A DNA stretch of 41,442 nucleotides from a bacterium (GTDB lineage: Bacteria; Cyanobacteriota; Vampirovibrionia; Gastranaerophilales; Gastranaerophilaceae). The stretch spans positions 1 through 41,442 of the forward strand of contig JAFXYZ010000004.1 in NCBI GenBank assembly GCA_017541465.1. Reading direction: 5' to 3'. A program made the translations under genes and the position numbers. A model generated the notes under the pieces. That model made no database searches and had not been told where the DNA came from. It saw nothing but the letters and a program-made list of their open reading frames with translations. Within the stretch, counting starts at the first letter, position 1. Every line of letters starts with the position of its first letter. Below are positions 9,732-13,343 of the stretch, one piece after another.

Positions 9732-10910
9732 ATGGGTAAGATTAATTCAGACAATTTATGGGTAAACGCACAGGCAGGATATGCAGCATATTCAAATGCA
9801 ATGCAGGCCAGAAAAGCAAATCCTCAGCAGGCAGAATCTGTAACAAATCTTGTTAAATATCTCGAAAATAAACCGATTACAGAGCCCGCAGGCGATACCT
9901 TCACCTCTACCGTTTCAGGTGCAATTCCCGGTCTGGCTATCTTTGAAGGCCCAAGAGGACTTTCCTGGTTAAAGAAAGCAAAAGGCGTTAAAGTTGATGA
10001 TGCTTTAAATATTGTTAAAACAGCTGAAGCAGGCAAGGATGCAGTTTCCTGCGCAGCTAAATTAAAAGAATTTGCAACTCCCGTAACCGATTCACTTAAA
10101 AATATTGCAACAGGCTCGGGTAAATTTACTCAGAGAGTAGGCAATTACTTTAAGTCGGTTAATGAATTTCAGGAAAATTCAAGAAAATTATCAGAAGCTA
10201 TGTCCACCTTCCGCAAAGCAGAAAAAGCAGGAAAGACGGTTGAAGAATTTACGGCAGCAGCCAAAGCAGCAGAAGGCGCAGCAAAAACAGGCAAGGTTGC
10301 AGGTGCTCTCTCTAAAGTAAAAGAAGTTGCAGGCAAACCGTTTGCAAAAGTTGCAGCAAAATTCCCCAAAGCAGCTAAATTCTTCAAGGGCTCAGGTGCT
10401 GCAGGCTTCGCAGTAATCGGCGGTGGTATTGAGCTCGCAACTGAAGTTGTACCGACCTTCAAACAACTCGGTGCAAAAGCAGGTATCAAACAAGTCGGTA
10501 AATCAGCAGTTAAAGTTGCGGCTGATGTCGGAGGATGGGCAGTCGGTGCAAAAGCAGGTGCGGCAGCAGGTGCAGCCATCGGTTCTATCTTCCCCGGTAT
10601 CGGTACAGCAATCGGTGCGGCAGTCGGAACATTTATCGGCGGTTTTGTTGGATCCTGGGGCGCAGGTAAAATCGCAAAAGCAGTAACAGGTCCGAGCGAA
10701 AGAGAACTTGCACAGGCTAAACAGGATAAAGAACAAACAGAACAAATCCAGGGCAGCGAACAAGACCTCGAATCTTTAAAACAACTCGCTTTCCAGAAGG
10801 TTCAGGCAACAGTTCAGCAAAATGGTTATATCGATGCCGATTCACAAAAAGCACTTGAAGAAATCGAAAAATTAAATAACCCGTTTGCAAAAGGTGCAAT
10901 CTACGCATAA
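9732..10910 (+). CDS. Ala/Gly-rich protein with glycine-zipper membrane region, unknown function
   Basis: A 392-residue protein. Residues 1-125 are mixed; about 145-215 is very rich in Ala and Lys and predicted helical; about 225-320 is a hydrophobic glycine-zipper region with repeated GxxxG/AxxxG steps (AGAAAGAAIGSIFPGIG, then AIGAAVGTFIGGFVG, then SWGAGKIA); about 325-392 is polar and Gln-rich. Such zippers occur in pore-forming bacteriocins, effectors and small membrane proteins, but no specific family is recognised. The 13-base gap between AGGA and the ATG is long. Codon use favours A/U endings with GCA-Ala throughout, suggesting high expression. It stands alone, ended by a strong terminator. 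Confidence 0.8.
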   Translation: MGKINSDNLWVNAQAGYAAYSNAMQARKANPQQAESVTNLVKYLENKPITEPAGDTFTSTVSGAIPGLAIFEGPRGLSWLKKAKGVKVDDALNIVKTAEAGKDAVSCAAKLKEFATPVTDSLKNIATGSGKFTQRVGNYFKSVNEFQENSRKLSEAMSTFRKAEKAGKTVEEFTAAAKAAEGAAKTGKVAGALSKVKEVAGKPFAKVAAKFPKAAKFFKGSGAAGFAVIGGGIELATEVVPTFKQLGAKAGIKQVGKSAVKVAADVGGWAVGAKAGAAAGAAIGSIFPGIGTAIGAAVGTFIGGFVGSWGAGKIAKAVTGPSERELAQAKQDKEQTEQIQGSEQDLESLKQLAFQKVQATVQQNGYIDADSQKALEEIEKLNNPFAKGAIYA

Positions 10911-10946: not shown

Positions 10947-10975
10947 AAGGGGCTTTTTCAAAAGCCCCTTTTTGT
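10947..10975 (+). terminator. Intrinsic terminator of the glycine-zipper gene
   Basis: AAGGGGCTTTT / AAAAGCCCCTT stem with a tight loop and a T5 tail (10969-10973), 37 bases after the stop. Confidence 0.92.
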
Positions 10976-11015
10976 GTATAATAATTTATCTGTAGAGTTT
11001 GAACTTTGAAATATA

Positions 11016-11203
11016 AATAAGGGCAAACCCGAAACCATAACCCCGCTGACACAGACAATTCACGCAACAAGGCAGAAAGGGGGATGAAAAAATGCGAATC
11101 GTGTTAAACGAAAAAGAGCTAATAATTATCATTTTGATAACATTAGCCCTCACGCATTAAGGGTTTCAAAGAGCGGTCTTGCCACCGCTCGCCCTTATTT
11201 TTA
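11016..11203 (+). ncRNA. Structured RNA of about 185 nt with end-to-end closing stem
   Basis: The two ends pair perfectly: AATAAGGGC (11016-11024) with GCCCTTATT (11191-11199), then AAACCC (11025-11030) with GGGTTT (11161-11166). A hairpin, GAGCGGT-CTTGCC-ACCGCTC (11171-11190), is inserted in the 3' strand. Inside are CCCC (11041-11044) with GGGG (11079-11082), AATGCG (11091-11096) with CGCATT (11153-11158), and a long hairpin at 11116-11151. A T-rich tail (TTATTTTTATTA) follows. Together these predict a closed, multibranched fold. It lacks tmRNA, RNase P, SRP and c-di-GMP riboswitch signatures, and it is not the simple rod of 6S RNA. It is flanked by terminators and precedes dut. An internal ORF (11092-11160) means it could instead be a tightly folded small mRNA. 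Confidence 0.55.
11092..11160 (+). CDS. Possible 22-aa hydrophobic peptide inside the structured RNA
   Basis: ATG at 11092, with GGGGG (11079-11083) eight bases upstream, encodes 22 residues: a polar start (MRIVLNEKE), then LIIIILITLAL and TH. One short membrane-spanning helix would fit. In the predicted fold the SD-like GGGGG pairs with CCCC at 11041-11044 and the start codon pairs with its 3' end, so translation would be blocked. Organisation of this kind is known for type I toxin mRNAs, but no antisense partner is seen. The coding sequence also forms a hairpin, so the ORF may be incidental. Confidence 0.3.
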   Translation: MRIVLNEKELIIIILITLALTH

Positions 11204-11263
11204 TTATAACTCATTTATATATTATTTCAAGTGTATGAAATTTTGAAAGAAAGAAAAATTATT

Positions 11264-12488: not shown

Positions 12489-12630
12489 ATTCTTTCTCCC
12501 CTCGGGGAGAATAGAATTTCAATGTTTAACTTGTTAAACATTAGAAATTCTAAGAGAGGGTATTCGATTAAAAATATTAGACAAAATGCAATGGCACCCT
12601 ATCCCTTAATCCCTTTCCACAGGAGAGGGA
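12489..12630 (+). repeat. Three consecutive hairpins in the prepilin leader region
   Basis: Hairpin 1 (12489-12517) is centred on TCTCCCC-TC-GGGGAGA with near-complementary ATTCT/AGAAT flanks. Hairpin 2 (12514-12550) pairs GAATTTC+AATGTTTAAC with GTTAAACATT+GAAATTC, a 17-bp stem with one bulged A. Hairpin 3 (12610-12630) pairs TCCCTTTCC with GGAGAGGGA and includes the SD of the TTG start at 12633. The whole stretch is open in the prepilin frame (no stop in 55 codons), so it can be translated as leader. It resembles an inserted small palindromic repeat, but no second copy lies in the window. Confidence 0.6.
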
Positions 12631-12632
12631 AA

Positions 12633-13343
12633 TTGTGCGCTTTTACGCTTGCAGAAGTCTTAATCACACTCGTCATTGTCGGCGTTATTGCAGCGCTGAC
12701 AGTTCCAACCTTGATTGCAAAATACACAGAGCAGCAGACAGTAACGGCAGTAAAGAAATTTTATTCGGAAATTTCTCAGGCCTACAACGCTGCAATAGCC
12801 AAAAACGGCCCGACAGATACGTGGGAACTTGTTTATGGAGGTGAAAGTGCTGAGAAGTTATTGAATATACTTGCTCCTCATCTCAGAATTATGAACAGAT
12901 GCGGAGCCGCAGGTGCTAATGGCAAATGTTTCGGTGATGCTACTTATAAAACTTTAAATCCTAATGTTAATTGGTTTTTAGGTAATCCCGGAACTTATGG
13001 TTCTTATGCTTCAGCAAGACTGGATAATGGATTTGTATTCTGGACTTGGGCTAATAATTGTAATATGAATGTTGGTTCAACAGAAAAACTGCAACATACT
13101 TGTGGGGCAATAGGTGTTGATATTAACGGTTATAAGAAACCTAATGCTTTGGGAAAAGATACATTTTATTTTTGGGTAACAAAAAATGCAATTGTTCCTA
13201 TTGGCTCAAGATTTGATACGGAGCATCCTTTGGATACATATTGTAATCGTTCAGACGCAGGTGGGAATAACGGCTATGCTTGTGCAGCCTGGATAATCGA
13301 AAAAGGAAACATGGACTATCTGCATCAGGATGTTCATTGGTAA
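12633..13343 (+). CDS. Type IV prepilin-like exported protein
   Basis: A 236-residue product from the TTG at 12633 (MLCA-FTLAEVLITLVIVGVIAA). AGGAG lies 7 bases upstream. The same frame is open further upstream, with ATGs at 12591 and 12522, and would join the SD-bearing ATG at 12430 if the C8 tract gained one base. The prepilin signal has Ala at -1 and Glu at +5. The mature part contains eight cysteines, a VDINGYKKPNALGKD segment also seen in the first prepilin (VDINGLKKPNVMGKD), and an aromatic C-terminus (QDVHW). Expected role is a pilin or pseudopilin of a type IV pilus/type II-like system. No assembly genes are nearby. Confidence 0.85.
   Translation: MCAFTLAEVLITLVIVGVIAALTVPTLIAKYTEQQTVTAVKKFYSEISQAYNAAIAKNGPTDTWELVYGGESAEKLLNILAPHLRIMNRCGAAGANGKCFGDATYKTLNPNVNWFLGNPGTYGSYASARLDNGFVFWTWANNCNMNVGSTEKLQHTCGAIGVDINGYKKPNALGKDTFYFWVTKNAIVPIGSRFDTEHPLDTYCNRSDAGGNNGYACAAWIIEKGNMDYLHQDVHW

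Follow-up and report, generated by a model that had tools for sequence, protein, structure and literature searches.

A putative type I toxin-antitoxin family in Gastranaerophilales, with a predicted self-inhibited toxin mRNA and a 3′-overlapping antisense RNA

What is the role of a tightly folded RNA that seems to conceal a very short hydrophobic open reading frame (ORF)? The question is raised by positions 11016-11203 of contig JAFXYZ010000004.1 (assembly GCA_017541465.1), from a bacterium of the Gastranaerophilaceae (Cyanobacteriota); the 41,442 nucleotides analyzed here are referred to as the window. A first-pass annotation, made from the sequence alone, had described this element as an RNA closed end to end, with a sequestered Shine-Dalgarno sequence (SD) and start codon, had likened it to type I toxin mRNAs such as hok and aapA, and had proposed a search for compensatory changes in homologues and an Rfam scan. 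The type I reading gained support from compensatory changes in homologous copies, from purifying selection on the ORF and from a conserved promoter and terminator on the opposite strand. We consider it very probable that the element represents a new family of type I toxin-antitoxin loci, with a self-inhibited mRNA of the aapA/hok kind and an antisense antitoxin that overlaps its 3′ part. The antisense promoter and the multicopy family are additions to the earlier description. The features of the locus, with the evidence that places each of them, are:

11005-11020, plus strand: putative sense promoter and transcription start, of uncertain class in the window copy; comparison with relatives.
11016-11030, plus strand: 5′ strand of the end-to-end helix; minimum-energy fold and covariation of the 5′ with the post-stop strand.
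11036-11044, plus strand: anti-SD (CAU and CCCC), partner of 11079-11086; minimum-energy fold and covariation.
11079-11083, plus strand: SD GGGGG, paired with the anti-SD; low unpaired probability at each prefix length and covariation.
11091-11096, plus strand: start-codon helix strand AATGCG, partner of CGCATT (11153-11158) at the ORF end; covariation in 66 non-redundant copies.
11092-11160, plus strand: 22-codon ORF of the putative toxin, MRIVLNEKELIIIILITLALTH; about 100 homologous ORFs behind an SD, ratio of nonsynonymous to synonymous polymorphism (pN/pS) 0.31.
11099-11111, plus strand: small hairpin within the ORF (FxIxE hairpin in relatives); pair variants in relatives.
11115-11150, plus strand: ORF palindrome, able to form a hairpin in either strand, with TTTTTC after it in the antisense strand alone; compensatory changes and the T run.
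11161-11199, plus strand: 3′ strand of the end-to-end helix, made of GGGTTT (11161-11166) and GCCCTTATT (11191-11199) with a hairpin/terminator (11171-11190) inserted; fold and covariation.
11110-11196, minus strand: predicted antisense RNA of about 87 nt, putative antitoxin; deduced from promoter and terminator.
11203-11230, minus strand: antisense sigma-70-type promoter, TTGAAA (11230-11225), 16 nt, TATAAT (11208-11203); family-wide conservation.

Folding of 11010-11210 gave -57 kcal/mol, against -34.9 (standard deviation 4.05) for 200 dinucleotide shuffles, none of which was as stable (z -5.46); 30 further family copies gave a mean z of -6.1 (range -4.3 to -9.7). The end-to-end closure of the first-pass annotation is exact in this fold: its 15 bp join 11016-11030 (AATAAGGGC followed by AAACCC) to 11191-11199 and 11161-11166, and the hairpin at 11171-11190 interrupts the 3′ side. 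Both internal contacts that it had read, the SD with CCCC (11041-11044:11079-11082) and the start region with the ORF end (11091-11096:11153-11158), likewise lie in the minimum-energy structure, and the predicted unpaired probability of the SD stays at 0.12-0.22 at all prefix lengths. Rfam gave no match, the hits at permissive thresholds lying far under the gathering score, at chance level; 6S RNA and other known families were therefore rejected.

The long-range, SD and start-codon helices are not the chance product of one sequence, because they recur with compensatory changes in other copies. Such changes were found in six helices: the end-to-end helix, anti-SD:SD, start codon:ORF end, two hairpins internal to the ORF and the 3′ hairpin. 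Permutation tests, which set pairing within copies against pairing between copies, gave values to be read as strong rather than as formal probabilities: z -8.3 for the 5′ strand with the post-stop strand and z -4.7 for anti-SD:SD (each 0/2000 permutations), and z -9.4 for the start-codon region with the ORF end (0/5000, 66 non-redundant copies). For the ORF palindrome and the 3′ hairpin/terminator stem, alignment A3 (108 distinct sequences) showed 94% paired, compared with 75% when shuffled, and 475 double-change cells compared with 144. Repeated independent events are argued by the several distinct pair types that each helix shows. The start-codon helix, for instance, reads AATGCG/CGCATT in the window, ATGATTT/AAATCAT in L011 and TGGATTT/AAATCCA in L090, and the FxIxE hairpin occurs with the pairs AG/CT, TG/CA, AC/GT and GC/GC, giving the peptides FSxTE, FCxTE, FTxSE and FAxSE, respectively.

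Is the ORF a gene, or does it merely lie within the structure? Nearly all of 105 oriented copies carry a strong SD (AGGAGGTGAT type) with an ATG, GTG or TTG start in frame, and their peptides, of 21-24 aa, follow the consensus xFSITEKALxLILLIIIALKxK or a shorter form as in the window. Among 79 non-redundant copies, codon position 2 of the hydrophobic core is almost invariably T and position 3 is variable. The pN/pS ratio across the whole ORF falls to 0.13 in the two codons of the palindrome's unpaired loop. Because constraint persists in these loop codons, where RNA pairing offers no explanation, the peptide is selected as a peptide, and the ORF is clearly under purifying selection as a protein. 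The Leu codon of the palindrome is CTA in 72 of the 79 copies, although CTA makes up 3 of the 201 Leu codons of the window's genes, a sign of constraint beyond coding. Four family peptides gave no match above cut-off in Pfam, NCBIfam, PHROGs or PADLOC. In another family of the order (genome G042), the copy L008 (1409-1533, minus strand) holds a 41-aa variant with the hydrophobic motif apparently present twice in one ORF.

On its other strand, immediately past the 3′ end of the RNA, the window carries a promoter that scores 11/12 against consensus, and a near-consensus TTGAAA-16/17-TATAAT is found there in almost all copies, the -10 at a single fixed position in 94 of the 105. Since the covariance model itself contained a -10 column, we made two independent checks. 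The -35, which no model column covered, reads TTGAAA in 73 of 105 copies; and among copies selected solely by an ORF motif, 76 of 82 have a promoter of at least 10/12 on the opposite strand within 150 nt downstream, compared with 62 of 800 random 150-nt windows. At the other end, a T run follows the palindrome on the antisense strand only, and in 73 of 79 copies five or more of the next 8 nt on that strand are T. The RNA predicted between these signals (-32.7 kcal/mol) consists of a 5′ hairpin followed by a terminator hairpin and UUUUUC, and overlaps the 3′ UTR (untranslated region) and ORF codons 7-22.

Losses of these elements are uneven. The promoter is absent from its expected place in 3 of the 82 motif-selected copies (L106, L122, L123), and all three also lack an SD; every SD-bearing motif-selected copy retains an antisense promoter of at least 9/12, and L015 and L086 have kept the promoter with no usable start. 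As far as the sequences tell, this asymmetry is the trace expected of a toxin that cannot be maintained without its antitoxin.

Copies are numerous and dispersed. When 59 relatives were searched at the DNA level, 16 more places came up, spread over eight genomes that include the window's own, where a second copy of a different subfamily lies at G000:C18:55941-56105. A covariance model built from 15 copies (R1) matched 81 of 191 genomes of the same taxonomic family, with up to 10 copies per genome, and 125 of 286 sampled in the order; tandem arrays occur, with copies about 300 bp apart (for example G026:C34 at 30001, 30309, 30614 and 30918). In a phylum sample of 292 genomes, R1 matched 66, every one in the order Gastranaerophilales and none outside it. 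The exact ORF-palindrome pattern, searched in 84,980 species genomes, returned 107 stretches, most of which carry the label Gastranaerophilales, Melainabacteria or uncultured. The labels of L128 (‘Fusobacterium’) and L056 (‘Heliobacteriaceae’) look wrong because their coordinates and scores coincide with places in the same-family genomes G143 and G105; L131 is labelled ‘Brachyspira’. This dispersed multicopy family is apparently undescribed: we found no account of it for Gastranaerophilales or Melainabacteria in the literature covered, which included few subscription papers.

The family, the selection on its ORF, the covarying helices and the conservation of promoter and terminator are observed; from them we infer transcription, toxicity, a membrane target, processing and antitoxin action, as follows. 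The plus strand would give an mRNA of about 180 nt encoding a 22-aa, single-helix membrane peptide, the toxin. This mRNA would fold shut, its ends paired with each other, its SD with the upstream anti-SD and its start codon with the ORF end. The SD hairpin could form upon transcription, the start codon would pair when the end of the ORF has been transcribed, and the ends would close after the 3′ end, so that the mRNA would be locked both during and after transcription, in the manner of aapA/hok (compare PMC6733600); as with aapA and hok, an active mRNA would require trimming or refolding. A separate strong promoter past the 3′ end, on the minus strand, would produce the short antisense RNA, which would pair with the downstream two thirds of the ORF as well as the 3′ UTR and end at the terminator formed by the toxin-gene palindrome. 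The resulting duplex would be cleaved by RNase III or block translation. Because an antisense RNA bound there should disrupt both the start-codon helix and the end helix, cleavage of the duplex or capture of trimmed, active mRNA seems likelier than a role in keeping the lock closed.

It also seems reasonably likely that, in this lineage-specific type I family of non-photosynthetic Cyanobacteriota, the toxin gene serves three purposes: it encodes the peptide, supplies strands that lock the mRNA transcribed from it (start codon:ORF end and the FxIxE hairpin) and, on the opposite strand, provides the antitoxin's terminator. RNA compensation would thereby force paired amino-acid changes (FSxTE, FCxTE, FTxSE, FAxSE; EL..A/V, AL..A/V), and the ORF would be an unusually clear case of a peptide sequence constrained by RNA pairing and by an opposite-strand terminator.

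Several points weigh against the toxin-antitoxin interpretation. Transcription, toxicity of the peptide and the antitoxin action are all read from sequence, and searches of Pfam, NCBIfam, PHROGs and PADLOC linked the peptide to none of the known type I toxins. The copies are related and the permutations leave kinship in, so that the covariation values overstate independence. Predicted SD accessibility is just modestly under that of shuffled controls (0.18 compared with 0.24, p 0.03). The sense promoter of the window copy is not a clear sigma-70 site, and a simple terminator scan left its antisense terminator unflagged, probably because the stem has a bulge. Finally, the promoter-less copies are few and have the appearance of truncated fragments, two of them (L122 and L123) possibly going back to one event.

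The alternative that survives best is a non-toxic small membrane peptide, for example a membrane-protein regulator or a stress peptide, regulated by antisense RNA within the same architecture. Clear selection as a protein and housekeeping-type neighbours at several loci would suit such a peptide, and our tests, being sequence-based, reach toxicity by deduction. The patchy distribution, the up to 10 copies, the tandem arrays and the lack of fixed neighbours, however, fit a toxin-antitoxin system better, and the antisense promoter in every SD-bearing copy and the several independent layers of translation block also speak against a harmless product, which we regard as unlikely. Still less plausible is a non-coding, palindromic mobile element resembling a miniature inverted-repeat transposable element, with an incidental ORF. 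The terminal inverted repeats (AATAAGGGC...GCCCTTATT), the dispersed and tandem copies and the strong structure would agree with it, but the pN/pS of 0.31, the conserved SD and start and the conservation at codon position 2 would not; moreover, the copies have diverged from one another, unlike recent insertions that are nearly identical, and their end repeats covary as paired strands of a helix, a property not required of transposon ends.

Two further explanations can be put aside. A role as leader structure or riboswitch for the gene that follows is suggested by the window copy, which lies directly upstream of dut, and is refuted by the multicopy, context-independent distribution: other copies adjoin unrelated genes in either orientation, with no conserved position before a given gene, dut is present in 19 of the 20 relatives sampled, some of which lack the element, and no Rfam riboswitch matches, which leaves this reading scarcely credible. 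A holin-like lysis peptide of a phage or prophage would be short and hydrophobic too, but with no match of the ORF motif in viral contigs at the sensitivity of this search, no PHROGs match and chromosomal neighbours, its probability is negligible.

How does the type I locus that we favor compare with described systems? Its toxin gene encodes a small hydrophobic peptide, with homologues and under purifying selection; a predicted antisense RNA gene carries its own promoter and terminator; complementarity is inherent in the cis overlap of about 87 nt, through which repression would act; and the predicted fold and its covariation point to a 5′-3′ paired mRNA with a blocked SD, which would be inert. 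No homology to aapA/IsoA or hok/Sok was found in Pfam, NCBIfam, PHROGs, PADLOC or Rfam. The locus would work like these two systems and, as far as the libraries show, belong to neither, and its peptide is similar to known type I toxins in kind only. AapA/IsoA is a multicopy chromosomal type I system in which a 5′-3′ long-distance interaction makes the mRNA inert, cotranscriptional hairpins block the SD and a cis antisense RNA lies over the toxin gene (PMC6733600). The multiple copies and the predicted 5′-3′ closure, local SD block and cis antisense RNA over the toxin gene are common to it and the family described here, whereas the lineage differs (aapA/IsoA belongs to Helicobacter and relatives) and no sequence relationship is detectable; in the predicted fold of the present family, an anti-SD upstream covers the SD and the end of the ORF covers the start codon, and the terminator of the antisense RNA falls within the toxin ORF. 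In hok/Sok, the antisense RNA starts over the leader, whereas here it is predicted to start downstream of the 3′ end. What the locus would share with hok/Sok is inhibition by folding back end to end, together with a 5′ hairpin that is metastable (PMC6733600), while no leader ORF was identified here.

By the position of its antisense RNA, the locus is closer to txpA/RatA and bsrG/SR4 of Bacillus, and its mRNA folding is like that of aapA/IsoA. In the Bacillus pairs, the antisense RNA is transcribed from beyond the 3′ end, over the 3′ part of the toxin mRNA, and the toxins are longer than the family peptide and unrelated to it. The overlap here differs in reaching ORF codon 7 and in stopping at a terminator within the ORF. 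RatA leads to degradation by RNase III, and SR4 to refolding of the mRNA upon binding to its 3′ UTR (PMC12390103). The very short hydrophobic peptide and the repeated copies are shared with ibs/Sib and zor/orz of E. coli (IbsC 19 aa, ZorO 29 aa), and IbsC is still toxic with 15 aa and 10 hydrophobic residues (PMC8309996), but no sequence similarity to either was found. An Rfam match to Sib on the antisense strand (22.5 bits, cut-off 56) was rejected as chance level.

Until recently, type I systems had been reported only from Proteobacteria, Firmicutes and Tenericutes; msoT1/msoA1 of Microcystis, described as unrelated in sequence to well-studied type I toxins, was reported in 2025 as the first candidate in Cyanobacteria, and it too has a cis antisense antitoxin (PMC12390103). 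It differs from the present family in its toxin with two predicted helices, in a sequence that is unrelated as far as judged, and in its photosynthetic host, the family here belonging to the non-photosynthetic Gastranaerophilales. With hundreds of copies in uncultured gut Gastranaerophilales, the family would widen the range of the type I mechanism and offer a large natural data set on the evolution of a self-inhibited toxin mRNA, and its helices, with dozens of compensatory variants, predict specific, directly testable pairings.

The 5′ side of the locus shows some variation. Many relatives have TTGAC-17-TATAAT immediately upstream of an AGGG start. The window copy (11003-11020) and L022, L071, L081, L088 and L110 instead share a box, TTGANA-NN(N)-TNAATAA, right before AGGG, replacing TTGACA-17-TATAAT; the window form at the sense start is TTGANA..TNAATAAGGG, as in a few others, and the box is possibly another promoter class or a regulated start. 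Further upstream, a strong intrinsic terminator (10947-10970) follows a Gly-zipper-like protein gene (9732-10910), and a TATAAT (10977-10982) downstream of this terminator could provide an alternative start for the sense RNA. Within 11016-11030, GGG-CAAA-CCC can form a local 5′ hairpin in nascent RNA; because its covariation among copies is at chance level (z -0.15), we only tentatively assign it a role as metastable alternative. Since 11016-11024 and 11191-11199 are inverted repeats, the predicted sense and antisense RNAs share the first letters AAGGGC. Most copies also have a conserved hairpin with loop ACUNNAAAU in the 5′ UTR, between anti-SD and SD (for example L090, 5900-6000).

Among the neighbours, the window's genes other than dut were not found beside dut in 18 sampled relatives. 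A reverse transcriptase gene (PF00078; L056, 4151-5266) immediately adjoins a three-copy array, and a tandem pair in L099 (5019-6565) is flanked by two small genes resembling helix-turn-helix regulators (Pfam was run on the left gene only). Both copies in the window's genome lie near genes with a pilin-like N terminus, FTLAEVLITLV (window 12522-13343; L011 1663-2316), which may be coincidence, such genes being common here.
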